From NCBI GenBank assembly GCA_963575645.1, contig OY754464.1:27481501-27545500 (forward strand): a stretch of DNA of 64,000 bases, in the 5' to 3' direction. Positions 1-48,908 of this stretch are shown piece by piece. A program made the position numbers and the translations under genes. The first letter of the stretch is position 1, and each line of letters begins with the position of its first letter. This stretch comes from Xanthostigma xanthostigma (Eukaryota; Arthropoda; Insecta; Raphidioptera; Raphidiidae). Below the pieces are notes generated by a model. That model did not search any database. It worked only from the letters and a program-made list of their open reading frames with translations, and was not told where the DNA came from.

Positions 1-300
1 TTTGGCTGCAGTGGCTTCAAGTGAGTCCAAGTGCGGTAAGTTATATTCATGGTGAACTATACTTTTTTTAATGAACAGAGCAACTCCGCCGCCAGCTGTA
101 TTGCGATCTCTACGATATATGTTATAGTCTCTAGAATTTAGTGAGGAGTTATTATCCAGGTGAGTTTCACTGATTCCGAGAACGTCAATGGATTTGCTAT
201 CAAGAGTTTGTGACACGTCATTAATTTTGTTTTTTATGGAATTTGAATTCCACGTTAATATTTTTATTTTATTTAGTGTGAATATGATTAGTCGAACATT
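1..300 (-). CDS. LINE ORF2, N-terminal endonuclease (partial at window edge)
   Basis: This is the beginning of the endonuclease/reverse transcriptase polyprotein, which nicks target DNA and primes reverse transcription. The minus-strand frame open from base 300 to base 1 encodes ILTWNSNSIKNK, then DVLGISETHLD, then YRRDRNTAGGGVALFIKK. These match the N-terminal beta strand with its metal-binding Asn, the catalytic ISETHL Glu block and the GGGVALFIK block of apurinic-type LINE endonucleases. The frame is shifted relative to ORF1 and overlaps its last few codons. I find no in-frame ATG between the upstream stop (301-303) and the first conserved block, so ORF2 may use reinitiation, frameshifting or a non-ATG start, or this copy may have lost its ATG. 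The reverse transcriptase lies outside the window. Confidence 0.85.
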
Positions 301-1508
301 TCAAACAGATTTTCGGCAATAATAACTAGTTTGGTAATTGCATCGGGTGCGGTTTTTAATTTATTTCCCATAGATTTTATTGAGGTAAGTATTTTAGAAA
401 AGTTAATATTTGTGAAAATCGATTTTATTTCTTTGAATACGTCACCAAGTGATTCACTGTTGGTGGCTGGCTGGTTTACAGCTGCTGTAGTAGAGCGATC
501 GGTCCAGAAGGATGATACGCCACTGGCGGATGACCGTCTTGCGTTGTTTCCAGGCAGGGGTGGGAAGTCTTCTGGTTTTGATCTAAAGCGCTGGTTGGAT
601 GTTGGTGAGTTTTTGCTGTTAACTTTTGGTGGTTGTGTTCGGCTCTGATAAATTTTTTTATAAACAACACAGTTTTTGTCACTTGCTAGATGGTTTTCAC
701 CGCAATTAGTGCACTTTGAATAGATCGATTCCCTAGACGGGCAGTCTTTTATATTGTGATTTTCGGCACACTTAAGACACCTAGGTACGCGATGACAGTT
801 TTTTGCAATATGGCCAAAATTTTGACACTTGAAGCACTGGGTAATTCCACTAAGATTTCTGTATTTTTCCCATTTAATTAAGCAATGGCATACTTTGTTG
901 TTTTTAATGATATCAGAAATTTTAGTGTGTTTGTCAAAAGTGACTATAAACAATGGTAAGTTTATTTCTGAATCGTTCAGTTTTTTGATCATTTGTTTTA
1001 CACTTGTAACAATTAAATTTTTTGATGCTAAGTCGTGTTTTATTTCACCACAGGTTACATTTGGCGGTATATTTTTGAGTACCATGCGAGGTTCAACTTC
1101 GGATTTTGGTGTGTACGTGTGGTACTCAACCCTAGATGTCTCAATAACAGATAATATCGTATTGTAGTCTTGAATTGTGTTAGTGTACACTAGCAAACGA
1201 TTGCCTTTAAATTTGATTGACATATCGTCTGTGAGTGCAGATTTTATTCCCGAAAGTGTTTCGCTGTGTTGATTGACCCAGCTATAAACCACGATGGGAG
1301 GGATTTTGACTTTACCCTTATTAGCATCAGTAGCGCGTTCATCTTGGTTACTTTCATCGTCTTCAGTATCGTCTTCACTAAGAACACTAAATGAGTTTGA
1401 TGTATTCACATTGTATCTTAGTTGATTTTGGCTAGAATCAATTTTTCGTTTTTTATCACTTGGGCATTGCCCGAGTGAAGTTGTTGGTCTATTAGTACAG
1501 AAACTCAT
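288..1508 (-). CDS. LINE ORF1, gag-like zinc-knuckle protein
   Basis: This 406-residue ORF1 protein would bind the element RNA and form the ribonucleoprotein that is retrotransposed. Residues 1-65 are polar and acidic, likely disordered. Residues about 100-215 resemble the RRM-like/PRE_C2HC region of Jockey-type ORF1 proteins (RMVLKNIPPNVTCGEI, then PLFIVTFDKH). Three CCHC zinc knuckles follow: C225-C228-H233-C238, C244-C247-H251-C256 and C266-C269-H273-C280. A Ser/Pro/Asn-rich linker and an amphipathic C-terminus (EIKSIFTNINFSKILTSIKS) close the protein. The start at 1506-1508 is the first ATG of the frame. The stop overlaps the ORF2 frame. No internal stop or frameshift is seen, unlike the other LINE fragments here. 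Clade assignment (Jockey versus CR1-like) is inferred. Confidence 0.9.
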   Translation of the reverse strand: MSFCTNRPTTSLGQCPSDKKRKIDSSQNQLRYNVNTSNSFSVLSEDDTEDDESNQDERATDANKGKVKIPPIVVYSWVNQHSETLSGIKSALTDDMSIKFKGNRLLVYTNTIQDYNTILSVIETSRVEYHTYTPKSEVEPRMVLKNIPPNVTCGEIKHDLASKNLIVTSVKQMIKKLNDSEINLPLFIVTFDKHTKISDIIKNNKVCHCLIKWEKYRNLSGITQCFKCQNFGHIAKNCHRVPRCLKCAENHNIKDCPSRESIYSKCTNCGENHLASDKNCVVYKKIYQSRTQPPKVNSKNSPTSNQRFRSKPEDFPPLPGNNARRSSASGVSSFWTDRSTTAAVNQPATNSESLGDVFKEIKSIFTNINFSKILTSIKSMGNKLKTAPDAITKLVIIAENLFEMFD

Positions 1509-1600
1509 TATTTATAAGAAATCAAAACAGAAAAGAATAGACAAACTGAAGAGATGCCGGGCACCTCTTCAAGTAAAAACACGCCGTTTCACTGCCAATT

Positions 1601-8820: not shown

Positions 8821-9918
8821 TTACCATTGGGTAACATCACCTTTATTGGTTATAACGGCCATTATTCTTCGAGGCATAGTATTAACTAAATTCTGGCAGT
8901 CTTGTGGAGTAAAGTTATCCCATATTTCTTTGAGTTTTTGTCTTAGATCTGAGACCGATCTAGCGGGAGTAACACGTAAGCGTTTTTTCATTTCATGCCA
9001 AAGTGTTTCAATTGGGGACAAGTCAGGGCTACTGGAAACCCACTCTAAGAGTGGAATAGTGTTCTCTGAGAACCATTTTTTAGCTTTTTTTGATGTATGG
9101 CAGGCAGCTCCGTCTTGCTGAAAAATAAAATTCTCTCCAGAGACCAAAACTTCTTCCATTGTTGGCAGCAGAGACTCTTCTAATATGTTTAAATATTTGT
9201 CTGTATTAACAATGCCATCAATAAAGTGCAGTTTTCCTACACCTCTTGCAGACATTGAGCCCCATACCATAACAGATGCTGGAAATTTCACTTTCCTTTT
9301 TAAACAGTCGGGATGGTATGCTTCATTTTTTTGACGAATAACTCTGCTCCGACTGTCACCTACACAAACTTCAAACCGAGACTCATCACTCCAATGTATG
9401 CTGTTCCACTGTTCAAAATTCCAATTTTTGTGTTCTTTTGCCCATTGCAATCTGTTTTTCTTTTGTTTCTGTGTCAACAATGGCTTTTCCTTAGCCTAAA
9501 CAAATTACGTATGTTAGTTTTTTGCAAATTTAAATTTAAGACAGCGGATTAAAAATATGAGTAATACCTTGTACGTTCCAAATCCTAACTTCTTTGCTTC
9601 CCTATGACATGTAGATCTCGAAATACGTCTTCCCACAGTATTGCTCCAAAGTACGCTCAATTGTCCGTAGTTAGCACGTCTGTTTTCCTTAATTATTCTT
9701 TTCAATGCCCGTTTATCACCGTCTGTTAGTTTGGTTTTCTTCACGTACCGGGGCTTTGAGGCGATTGAACCATTTGTTTTGTACAGTCTCACAATATTTC
9801 TAACACTATATTTTGATAAATTTAACAATTTCCCGATTTCGGAATTTGATTTTCCGGTTTTCCACAAGTTAATAATGATTACTCTAAGTTTTTGGTCAAT
9901 AACTGCGCCTCTACCCAT
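8821..9918 (-). CDS. Tc1-like DD34E transposase, two exons
   Basis: This enzyme cuts and rejoins the element at its inverted repeats. Exon 1 is 9918-9568 (117 codons) and exon 2 is 9495-8821 (224 codons plus stop), giving 341 residues, the normal Tc1 length. Exon 1 encodes the paired-like DNA-binding domain: a first helix-turn-helix (residues about 1-50, NSEIGKLLNLSKYSVRNIV) and a second (about 65-115, ending KKLGFGTYK). Exon 2 has the catalytic triad: Asp in WSDESRFEV, Asp in FQQDGAACHT, and Glu in SPDLSPIETLWHEMKKRL, with exactly 34 residues between the second Asp and the Glu. The glycine-rich VMVWGSMSARGVGKL block is present. Exon 2 has no ATG of its own near its start, supporting splicing from exon 1. 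No damaged residue is visible. Confidence 0.92.
9496..9567 (-). other. Intron in Tc1 transposase
   Basis: On the minus strand the boundary is AAG|GTATTAC and the end is GTTTAG|GCTAAG, a phase-0 GT-AG intron of 72 bases with stops in the exon-1 frame. Removing it joins TYK to AKEKPLLTQKQKK, the usual Tc1 sequence order at this place. Confidence 0.85.
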
Positions 9919-10276
9919 TTTTAAGTTAAAAAAATATTATACTATTACTTTTTGACACTTTTGACAAATTACTATCAATAAATAACAATTGTTTTATCGT
10001 GTTTTTACATAGCCACCTCTAATATCACTTAACTTCTTACATAGTCTAATATTTGTTATGTTGACGCATAAAACGCATTATTTACACCCATTTCGTTTTT
10101 ATGATAAAAATTAAATATATTTGAATACATTTTACTTAATGTTATGAAAACAGCTTTTAATATGAATATTTACAAGAAAAAAATGTAAAGTGGCAGTTAG
10201 TTTAACACTTTTTTGAATAAATCTTAAAGAAATTGAAATTTCAGTAAGTGGGCCAATTGAAACGGGACGGGGCTCG

Positions 10277-26640: not shown

Positions 26641-28124
26641 TGGATGGATTATAAGATTAGTATTTGTTCGACCGATATCTATGGATAGAATGATGATGGT
26701 ACCAGAGTGGCGGAAGAACCACCTTCTGATGGTGGGTACGCGTCGGTGAGAGGTGAGATCCTTCATTAATAAATTTTGCCTTTTCGAAGTGCCCAATGAA
26801 ATAGAACGTATTGCTGCAGCTACAATCCTTGTACTATTTATTCGGCATTATCTATACTACTTAACCTAAAAATACATTTTAATTCAATTTCAAACATCAA
26901 ATGCATTGTTCTTATTTTTGATACAAAAAAAAATTACAGCTTTCGATCAATTGACATTAGTAGGTACTCGCTAAATGAATACACGGTTGTGACCGGCAAA
27001 GTTGACACGAAGTTTGTTTCAAGCAGCCAGCAAACGGTAACGAAACTGTCACCCGCATGCAAGACGAAACTGTTGTATCGGTTTTATAACACGTTTTAGC
27101 TATCTGCGCATGACGGTGACGGTTTCCTGACCGTTTGCTGGCTGCTTGAAACGAACCTATGGACGACCACAAGATAACCCCCCACGAGCCCGCTCCGCAC
27201 CTTTGATCTTAGCGACTCGCTGTGGATGAACCGCACAACCCCGGACGCGTCTACGTCACTACAGAGTACGCGGATATTATATCTTTACAACGGCGCGTCG
27301 ATTTAGTACCGGGGTAACTGCAGACCATAGCCCGCAAGTTGATCCCAACGAGATTTTGTACGTTTAATTCTAAGTGACTTGGTAGGAGTTGCTTAATACA
27401 ATTTTATTTCTACTTTTATCAAACTAGAAATCGATTTGAAAATGAATTTATTAAATATAGATTATAGATGCCCGACAACTAAAGTCATAAACGAATCTCT
27501 AAATATCAATGGACTGTAATGATAAATTGGACCTTATTGCAATAGTTTGACGTCTCCAATTGAACAATAAATTCTAGCTCTACGTAGTAAATACGTATAT
27601 CCATCGAGCCAAAACCAATACAAAATTGTCCCAAACACGGAATTCAGTTGTGGAATTTTCCCACATTTTACATAATAATTAGATAAGTACCTGAACAGAT
27701 TACCTATAGTAACGTACAAAAATTTAAGGAGCTAGTCATCATTATAGTATACCTACAGTTCGCCTAATGAAGCGGCAAAGCAATGAAACAATGTAAAATG
27801 TATACACGTTCCACTGTTCCAGTCATAAAAAATTATGCCTCTTGTTATTAGATTGCGAAGTATAATTGTTTGACTCAATCCTTAAAAACAAATAATAGAT
27901 AGATAGATAGTTATTTATTTGTGGAGCATAAAAAATGCTATAAATACGTCACATATACATACACGAAGAACATAGAGTAAAAAATGATATTAAAAGTTAC
28001 ATTAAAATTTATATATTAATCAATCTGCAATGTATGCCTATGAACTGGTACTATTCTCAAACTTTTTATAAAGACATAACTAAGAAAAATAATCCCTTAC
28101 CTGTTTTTTGAAATAAAAACACTT
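26641..28124. other. No gene seen apart from one hairpin
   Basis: Bases 27160-27360 are moderately GC-rich without a good frame. A GATA run lies at 27897-27910. The hairpin at 27012-27156 is listed separately. Confidence 0.4.
27012..27156. repeat. 145-base hairpin
   Basis: GTTTGTTTCAAGCAGCCAGC...AAACGGT pairs with its complement at 27130-27156 (26 of 27). Pairing continues inward through GAAACTGTCACC and GCATG with a few mismatches, so nearly the whole segment folds back. Confidence 0.75.
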
Positions 28125-28270
28125 GAAAATTCTACAAAATATTTTCTCTCTCGATCGTTTTGGACATTCAGTCCATCTTCAGGAGTACAGACATGGGTAT
28201 ATCTTCTACTCCTGAAGATGAACTGATTTTTCGAAACGATCGTCGAGAGAAAACATATTTTGTAGAATTC
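28125..28270. repeat. Inverted pair of hammerhead-like motifs
   Basis: Two copies of CTCCTGAAGATG...AAACGATCG face each other across a short centre (minus copy 28146-28183, plus copy 28211-28249), with AATTCTACAAAATATTTTCTC flanking arms also pairing. This arrangement is known from the terminal repeats of Penelope-like retroelements. Confidence 0.6.
28211..28249 (+). ncRNA. Hammerhead ribozyme-like core
   Basis: Reading 5' to 3': CTC (stem I), CTGAAGA (CUGANGA core), stem II with GAA/TTC pairing, GAAA, CG-AT-CG (two-base-pair stem III with a tiny loop), TC (completing a GUC cleavage triplet), and GAG (stem I partner). All invariant positions are present. Stems are minimal, as in Penelope-element hammerheads, which usually work as dimers. 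The facing minus copy has lost the triplet and has AAAA instead of GAAA. Activity is not shown. Confidence 0.5.
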
Positions 28271-28745
28271 ACTAGTGTTTGTATTATTTGTTATTAATCA
28301 TGTGCCAAGTGAAAAATGATAAAAATCATCATTTTGAATTTATAGTATAGAAGATATTACAATGATTAGGTAGACCTAATTGTGGGCATGTTGAGATTCA
28401 TAATATTTCATTACAATCTTTATTTGAGGTAATAAACATAAACAAAACACTGCAATTTCGACGCGGTATAATTTCACGCCGATGCAACGTGCCGTTTCAA
28501 ATACATATGTGAATAATCATGGCGGCATGACCACACAAAGATTGAAATTAATTTAGGAATGCCTAAATAACTAAAGTACAAATTAATAATTTTGCAGACT
28601 GGCCTTGTCGAAATGATAGGTACCTATAGTAGGGATATTTGGAAAAGTAGGTTCTTAGAAATGAAATTAAAGAAATAATGCGGCTATAAACAATTTTTTT
28701 ATCAACTTCGAAAAAAGAGGTTATCAATTCGACACGTATGGTCAA
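28271..28745. other. No gene seen
   Basis: AT-rich spacer. It ends with GAGGTTATCAATTCGACACG, a word shared with 5290. Confidence 0.4.
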
Positions 28746-36890: not shown

Positions 36891-37078
36891 TGATGTATTT
36901 TTACTCCAGATTTCGAGGAGGAAGTTACACTCCTCTGCCTCTCAGTCTCATGTGTACGTCCATGATCCTACCTTATTTGACTATAGGTATAACTAAAGTC
37001 TAAAAAAAAACTAAATGTTAAAACTTAAACCTCTATTTGGAATACAAATATTAAGAGCACTGTGGTTGAAACAAAACT

Positions 37079-37517
37079 AACAAAATTAAGAATAGTTACA
37101 TTCTTACCACAACAGTTTTATTAGTGGATGTACATTTCGGGAGCTATATGCCCTCATCTTCAGCAAACACTAAACTAAGTAACTAAACAAAAATATTAAC
37201 TTAATATAACAATTACAGGTATAAAACAAAAATTAAACTAGGTACTAAAACTATAATCAAAAGACTTGCGTTGTTGACAGTTTCTCAAGTTACAATGGAT
37301 CTCCAGTTTGTTACCTGATCTTTCGCAAGTCTTTTGATTAGTTTTAGTACCTGTTTAATTTTTCTTTTATACCTACCTGTAATTGTTATATTAAATAATT
37401 AAGTAAGATTTTTGTTTAGTAACTTAGTTTAGTTTTTGCTGAAGATGAGAGCGTAGATCCCCGCTCCCGAAAACAACCGCTATAAAACTGTCGTGGTAAG
37501 AAGTAACTATTCTTTAT
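37079..37517. repeat. Long inverted repeat with hammerhead-like motifs
   Basis: The arms share TAGTTAC/GTAACTA, CTTACCACAACAGTTTTAT and complement, CATCTTCAGC and GCTGAAGATG, and a TAACAATTACAGGTA block, over about 200 bases each. A 50-base GC-richer centre (37275-37320) separates them. A short fragment with GAGCACTGTGGTTGAAAC lies just upstream (37052) and again at 41101, so this is a repeat family, probably Penelope-like. Confidence 0.65.
37121..37173 (-). ncRNA. Hammerhead ribozyme-like core
   Basis: On the minus strand: TTAGTG (stem I), TTTG bulge, CTGAAGA core, stem II with GGGC pairing GCTC, then GAAA, TG-TA-CA (two-base-pair stem III), TC (AUC cleavage triplet), C bulge, and CACTAA, which pairs exactly with TTAGTG as stem I. 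Every core position is filled. The facing plus-strand motif (37439-37472, CTGAAGA...GAAA) has a degraded stem III. Function is inferred from structure only. Confidence 0.5.
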
Positions 37518-37599
37518 TTTTTTATTTATATTTGGAATTTTCAAGTCCTTAAGATACTTTGATTCTTCACGGGAAAGCGGACAGGTACAAATTAATTTA

Positions 37600-41089: not shown

Positions 41090-41235
41090 AATACAGTACA
41101 AATATTAAGAGCACTGTGGTTGAAACAAAAATAAAAAATAAAGAATAGTTCAAACACTAACCTGTTTAGTGTTAGCTAAAGAAATGTGAATCCGCTAATA
41201 AAACTGGTGTGGTAAGAAGTTACTATTCTTTAGTT
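41090..41235. repeat. Fragment of the 37-kb inverted-repeat family
   Basis: It shares ATTAAGAGCACTGTGGTTGA and AAGAATAGTT with 37050-37100, and GTGGTAAGAAGTTACTATTC with 37493. The hammerhead-like segment has been lost. Confidence 0.6.
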
Positions 41236-41246
41236 TTATTAAAATA

Positions 41247-48467: not shown

Positions 48468-48873
48468 GCATTATTATGTGAATTTTACAATAATCGATTG
48501 TAACTATACGAACGCATTCACGGATCGAGGCAATCGAATAAGGCCAATATAGGTTTTGTAACGCATTTTCGGACAGGGATCGGAGCTGGCTAACCTAATA
48601 CATCCCGATCAATTTACCTTTTCCGGTACTGATAAGGGCAGTTCGATCAGGTCCTGAATAGTCTCGCTGATAGGGTATTGCGATTACAATAAAAACGGCT
48701 AGCCTGATATGATCCTAATAAGTTTATTAATAGGTATTCCTTATCAGACATGTTTTGGCCAACATGTAGTACCTACATGTTTATTTTTATAACATTATAA
48801 ATAAGTTGAAGGAGATTTATTTGGTTGAGGAACAATTGAAAAATAAGCTTTACCTGCAGAGTATCGCTTGTGG

Positions 48874-48908
48874 CCAACGTTTCGAAAATTATATTTTCAT
48901 CGTCAGGG
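48874..48908 (-). ncRNA. Hammerhead-like motif, partly degraded
   Basis: On the minus strand CCTGACGAT, then a perfect GAAAA-TATAA-TTTTC stem II, then GAAACGTTGG. Core CUGANGA and GAAA are intact with the best stem II of the set. Stem III and the cleavage triplet are not convincing (CG-TT-GG), so it is probably inactive. Confidence 0.4.

Follow-up and report, generated by a model that had tools for sequence, protein, structure and literature searches.

The window, as we call the whole 64-kb stretch of DNA that was analysed (64,000 nucleotides from Xanthostigma xanthostigma), contains an imperfect palindrome of ~226 bp on which this study centres. As judged from inverted repeats and from the family alignment described below, the whole element occupies positions 28104..28329 of the plus strand (1505-1730 of L001, the window copy in our alignment) and is a head-to-head inverted dimer of a Penelope-type 3′ end. 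It outruns the limits of 28125-28270 given in a preliminary description made from the letters of the DNA, its real span being about 28104-28329. The left arm (28112..28187, minus strand), delimited by inverted repeats, is tailless and houses a decayed hammerhead-like motif. The right arm (28207..28285, plus strand), delimited by inverted repeats and family alignment, carries the better hammerhead (HHR) followed by the 3′ terminal region. The arms pair as 28112-28154 with 28243-28285 and as 28152-28187 with 28207-28242, with an identity of 86% in each pair.

The plus motif (28209..28247, plus strand) has every core letter. Its CTGAAGA box (28212-28218) is separated by a single T (28219) from a stem II of three pairs only (GAA/TTC), and GAAA stands at 28233-28236. 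Stem III consists of two pairs (AC/GT) enclosing GATC and is followed by GTC, after whose C17 (28244) cleavage is predicted, and stem I is formed by CTC (28209-28211) and GAG (28245-28247). The plus motif thus has the invariant core of a minimal type I hammerhead, CUGANGA / GAAA / NUH, whereas the minus motif does not. The latter (28146..28187, minus strand, read as the reverse complement) retains CTGAAGA and a four-pair stem II (GGAC/GTCC); its G12 has become A (GAAA to AAAA), the GUC triplet (GTC) is deleted and, to judge by these letters, the motif is dead. The letters of 28125-28270 therefore confirm the earlier observation of two facing hammerhead-like motifs, the plus one complete in its core and the minus one decayed.

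The right arm is extended by a partly decayed ‘tail' (28290..28329, plus strand). Its tail score of 33 is just below our automatic cut of 36, and the range for arms on which no tail is visible is 10-24. With the right arm being the tail-bearing one, the plus motif of the window copy points outward, toward the tail. A candidate pair of target-site duplicates, TTTTGAA at 28106..28112 and 28332..28338, was found by eye, the left one overlapping the automatic left boundary. This candidate is weak, as the automatic scan gave only a 4-mer and 16% of control pairs reach a match of at least 7.

Taken alone, such a motif is within chance. The string CTGAWGA-N4..16-GAAAC has one match in the 64-kb window and at least one in 23 of 100 shuffles, and a hammerhead descriptor with a stem II of at least 3 pairs has three window matches and at least one in 39/100 shuffles. 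The palindrome and the family are beyond chance; the strand fold of the palindrome has a z of −13.5 (versus 200 shuffles). Rfam gave no match on the window at the gathering threshold and no hammerhead at E values up to 10, and a genome-wide search with RF00008 returned nothing, the controls being silent too. This silence says little, because Rfam also missed hammerheads in six motif-bearing loci that encode a GIY-YIG domain (see below); in two palindromes it likewise reported no hammerhead. Of the covariance-model check proposed in the preliminary description, the absence of an Rfam match in the window thus stands, and its power to decide falls away with the blindness of Rfam to this type of hammerhead.

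We compared the folds open to the window copy. The predicted energy is −81.5 kcal/mol for the palindrome, −32.1 kcal/mol for the same sequence with the hammerhead enforced, and +2.6 kcal/mol for the isolated hammerhead fold. Since the palindrome fold wins by ~49 kcal/mol, a whole-element transcript should hide the hammerhead. By these models, hammerhead activity in the dimer context would be unlikely, and the ribozyme of the window copy, hidden within the long hairpin, most probably has no function there. A perfect-looking hammerhead core can, as a general caution, be masked by its own palindrome. The core columns of the family alignment are also not clearly better conserved than their neighbours (0.953 versus 0.929, p = 0.05, with gapped columns removed; an earlier test gave p = 0.024, but took in an indel-rich purine run), and on these alignments we do not claim selection on the core. 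Both arms have a full core in 13/38 copies, one arm in 19/38 and neither arm in 6/38.

These results bear on the proposal that the locus is a working solo ribozyme or retrozyme-like unit, which would cleave itself and yield a small circular RNA. The presence of all core letters in the plus motif agrees with such a unit, as does a size near that of animal retrozyme RNAs (about 170-400 nt, PMC7229834). However, the energies above and the barely raised conservation of the core argue against it, and one full-core motif alone would allow no double cleavage, so we regard this explanation as extremely improbable. What had been put forward as a possible ‘solo' ribozyme unit is instead an inverted head-to-head pair of PLE-type (Penelope-like element) 3′ ends, and the hammerhead here is best read as an inherited part of the pLTR.

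Related copies were sought in the 623-Mb assembly (28 contigs) with 191 bases of the window locus as the query. The search gave 731 first-look candidates, from which 40 places were scored, the window copy among them (80 matches, each place matching on both strands); 39 of the 40 were taken into the family alignment and C1:67136413 was left out. The alignment falls into two subfamilies, CTGAAGA and CTGATGA, with a common plan of stem II GGAC/GTCC, GAAAC, a GATC loop, GTC or GTT, and GAGA. The 3′ region of the unit comprises the minimal type I hammerhead, beyond which it runs on for about 52 nt where it stops at the inner end and for about 100 nt where it includes the tail. The hammerhead sits near the apex of the palindrome. 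The apex itself is highly variable, with element spans of 108-571 bp, three of which are lengthened by nested insertions. Wherever both arms can be read, which excludes L019 with its one unreadable arm, they belong to the same subfamily; this fits copying from one template.

An arm extended upstream retrieved 38 candidates, all of which were scored; their apex lengths differ, and this route led to no ORF. In L083, L092 and L103 the dimer apex is lengthened by extra inverted sequence. Part of this added sequence is common to L092 and L103 and is therefore probably upstream sequence of the element; that of L083 differs. Two copies, L034 and L039, gave Rfam matches to mir-4662 (E 2e-8 to 4e-7), which we rejected as a microRNA identity and attribute to hairpin resemblance; their bit scores reach 51, far below the gathering score of 97.

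The outer ends of the dimers are unequal. One arm is usually longer by the ~48-nt tail, which starts ATAATTTGCACTG, and the other ends ...TTTGTTA. Tails were counted in the loci fetched irrespective of the tail (L001-L050), where 38 of 39 copies had both arms recognised, and tail-fetched loci (L074-L103) were excluded as having been selected by tail; across all loci, tail scoring dropped 9 of 66 with one arm unrecognised, L045 being the one from the tail-unbiased set. Automatic scoring of the 38 copies gave one tail in 28, two in 1 and none in 9. On reading the rows by eye, we reassigned L001, L025 and L026 to the one-tail class and L031 to the two-tail class, for a final count of 30 copies with one tail, 2 with two and 6 with none; by our own arithmetic, independent tails would predict about 18-19 one-tail copies. 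The two double-tail copies, L004 and L031, are also flanked palindromically.

We then scanned 57 elements for target-site duplications (these 38 and 19 tail-fetched ones; the left arm of L025, which bears a nested insertion, was set by hand). Exact flank matches of at least 10 bp were found in 16/57 elements and of at least 12 bp in 12/57, compared with 0.75% and 0.03%, respectively, of mispaired control flanks; the remaining 41/57 elements had no exact flank match of at least 10 bp. Examples are AATCCCGCAC (L008), TAAGAGCGTTTT (L025), GTTTAATATTGGTATA (L028) and AATTTCGATTT (L049), and the lengths of exact matches range from 9 to 16 bp. Some flank matches are AT-rich or lie within palindromic flanks (L018, L031) and may be no duplications.

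The outer arms of L025, L028 and L036 contain nested palindromes of two other families, each with its own 11-12 bp repeats and, by eye, with a tail on a single arm (3/3). Those of L025 and L028 are one family, with a near-apex hammerhead-like motif, GTACTTGAAAAAGTCTAAATTTATAGACGAAACGTCGTAC, whose core is decayed. That of L036, which we call family 3, is truncated within the motif; L096 has the complete motif of this family.

Could the family be a foldback DNA MITE, with the hammerhead-like string merely lying inside its terminal inverted repeats? It is non-coding, palindromic and of high copy number, its parent ORF was not found, and Mutator-like elements also show target-site duplications of 9-11 bp. 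The ends, however, differ by the ~48-nt tail, so that there are no symmetric terminal inverted repeats, and the variable flank matches disagree with a duplication of fixed length. Furthermore, sister families share the motif, are also arranged head-to-head and show a like asymmetry of the tail, and one of them includes GIY-YIG loci. A DNA MITE, which the preliminary description had named as the outcome that would overturn a Penelope reading, is thus very improbable given the unequal arm ends and the long duplications of variable length.

The rest of the window supplies a second case. At 37044..37528 lies another head-to-head dimer, which belongs to the PLE family of the GIY-YIG loci L066-L073 and has its tail on the left arm. 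The 10-bp direct repeat TATTTGGAAT, noted by eye, stands at its edges (37034-37043 and 37529-37538). Compared with the 3′ ends of L066-L073, its better arm is 83-85% identical and its other arm 73-76%, and L070 and L071 match farther out on the left arm. We consider this second dimer the best internal support for the PLE reading. Solo fragments of a PLE 3′ end as in this dimer were recognised by sequence match at 41100..41245 (plus strand), and a solo 3′ end of family 3 (hammerhead-bearing, PLE-type, with the core CTGACGA) at 48802..48908 (minus strand). A tblastn search of the window with 6 PLE open frames from 5 loci gave no match at E 1e-3, so that no PLE protein was seen there, in agreement with the preliminary description. 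Other coding stretches of the window are a Tc1/mariner-like transposase in two open frames (8821-9936, minus strand; DDE_3 and HTH matches) and a 407-aa open frame resembling gag/ORF1 (288-1511, minus strand), with a weak CCHC zinc knuckle below the Pfam cut-off.

A genome search for GIY-YIG domains gave 521 candidates, of which 150 were scored; 20 loci were fetched and 19 analysed. L057, whose GIY-YIG stretch we take to be probably of the host SLX1 type, was set aside from the hammerhead descriptor count. The descriptor found 14 matches in 12 of the 19 loci, whereas 100 dinucleotide shuffles gave 0.26 on average and never more than 2. These matches are redundant and amount to about five families, as L063 and L065 overlap, L061 is close to both, and L066-L073 are one family. 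No descriptor match was found in 7/19 loci, of which L055, L056 and L058 hold a decayed version. Twelve of the 14 matches share the strand of the GIY-YIG domain and lie about 0.3-0.9 kb past the domain match; the remaining two, those of L063 and L065, fall on the other strand, and in L063 there is an inverted repeat at that place. The letters of stem II vary among the families yet pair (GCC/GGC, GCTA/TAGC, GGCC/GGCC, GAGAGC/GCTCTC, GTTGT/ACAAC), a pairing judged by the descriptor against shuffles and by reading the stems. Both proteins that were scanned, of L070 and L064, have RT and GIY-YIG domains.

The head-to-head order recurs in the coding copies. In the set of 150 scored GIY-YIG matches, all 21 pairs of opposite-strand neighbours within 6 kb have their C-termini outward (21/21) and none inward, and there are 5 same-strand pairs. 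Likewise, the family 3 search with L096 as the query (1610 first-look candidates) shows, among the 53 matches listed, 14 pairs pointing outward, none inward and 1 on the same strand. These 53 matches are 95-100% identical to the query, so family 3 is young.

A coding parent of the window family was not found: none of the 117 listed places (some of which are two matches on one element) lies within 15 kb of the 150 scored GIY-YIG matches. Full Penelope elements sharing the terminal repeat of the window family, which the preliminary description had suggested looking for, did not turn up by this measure. The PLE membership of the window family therefore rests on its structure and on its sister families. 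These bear out the Penelope origin that had been suggested for the locus, through the same hammerhead design and head-to-head order in GIY-YIG loci, the inverted pLTR build and the target-site duplications of the family. We conclude that the window locus is, with little doubt, a PLE-derived inverted pLTR dimer. The full explanation that we consider best, and likely to be correct, is an old non-autonomous Penelope-type insertion in which two 3′-terminal copies are joined head-to-head by their upstream sides.

How such a palindrome could form is suggested by the build of the family taken together with published work on Penelope elements (see below). A resident Penelope protein would bind the hammerhead/tail RNA and both target strands would be cut, about 10-16 bp apart. 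Each cut end might then prime reverse transcription, one using the tail site and the other the inner site, and joining of the resulting short cDNAs where they meet would give a palindrome with a variable apex and fixed ends, with the hammerhead carried along as a component of the pLTR. The dimers without a recognisable tail (6/38) count against this explanation, as do the 41/57 elements with no exact flank match of at least 10 bp, the 7/19 GIY-YIG loci with no descriptor match and the failure to find a coding parent.

The same PLE origin would also be compatible with a palindrome that arose when a single cDNA primed itself or folded back, or that was copied from an RNA already palindromic. Self-priming on an antisense template has been proposed for Penelope inverted repeats (PMC3846280). 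Two observations among the GIY-YIG loci are relevant. L071/L072 (G000:C4 near 23146938) form a perfect, spacerless palindrome (100%) that joins two GIY-YIG copies and measures at least 1156 bp, and L067 has a near-perfect one (98.8%) at 86-1423, also with zero spacer; both are either a fold-back product or an assembly effect. Zero-spacer palindromes fit fold-back better than two starts, and arms of one subfamily in every readable copy agree with it too, as do L004 and L031, whose two tails and palindromic flanks would be expected from fold-back through the target. Fold-back should, however, copy the first arm fully, whereas the second arm usually ends ~48 nt early at one place. Nor are the arms within an element clearly closer than arms of different elements (0.907 versus 0.895 in subfamily A, p = 0.13), and the wide variation of the apex also counts against fold-back. 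We consider fold-back of one cDNA a serious rival, quite possible though somewhat short of an even chance, and on the choice of two-sided priming rather than fold-back our judgement is evenly balanced.

Extending two-sided priming to the other families, we tentatively propose, in the knowledge that it may well not hold, that the ORF-less head-to-head hammerhead palindromes (at least three families) form a trans-mobilised miniature class of Penelope elements. They would record two-sided target-primed reverse transcription with one tail-site and one inner-site priming per insertion. The route of Penelope insertion, and its frequent head-to-head, one-tail outcome, are the matter at stake: self-priming was proposed in 2013 (PMC3846280) and two-strand extension was demonstrated in vitro in 2024 (PMC11167929). 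This genome offers many short insertions, a good share of them with target-site duplications, and a young family, allowing a base-by-base comparison of both models.

The window family is a new family within a known type of element. A literature search that combined Penelope with hammerhead and Lepidoptera gave no paper; most subscription papers lie outside its coverage and we claim no priority. In Penelope inserts the pLTRs are inverted, usually in head-to-head order; target-site duplications are short, and one of the inverted pLTRs may bear a 31-bp tail (PMC3846280). As described there, the Penelope elements of Adineta vaga are like the window family in their inverted head-to-head pLTRs, palindromic junctions and one-sided optional tail, and have target-site duplications of 8, 9 and 10 bp. 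They differ in that the inserts mostly have an ORF and are few, whereas the dimer seen here lacks an ORF, bears a longer tail and yielded first-look candidates in the hundreds.

The purified PLE of Anolis cuts and extends both target strands, and it starts reverse transcription internally, downstream of the hammerhead, using two sites, one at either limit of the tail (PMC11167929). Hammerhead mutants of this element still inserted, and no difference in start site was seen between the strands (PMC11167929). One tail per insertion is thus left unexplained by the Anolis data. The Anolis element, the Poseidon PLE PAc, resembles the window family in having its hammerhead within the pLTR; its hammerhead overlaps the start of the ORF (PMC11167929), whereas no ORF is linked to the window family.

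The minimal hammerheads of PLEs, as described in PMC6155905 and PMC11167929, are like that of the window in being type I-like, with a tiny stem III and without clear tertiary contacts. A possible difference is that in the families seen here a single unpaired base separates A9 from stem II. Metazoan retrozymes share with the window element a small size, a non-autonomous nature and a type I hammerhead (PMC7229834). They are, however, tandem repeats with canonical hammerheads (PMC7229834), and we rejected retrozyme membership for the window element, which lacks tandem monomers with a canonical type I hammerhead and is instead an inverted dimer with a minimal one.
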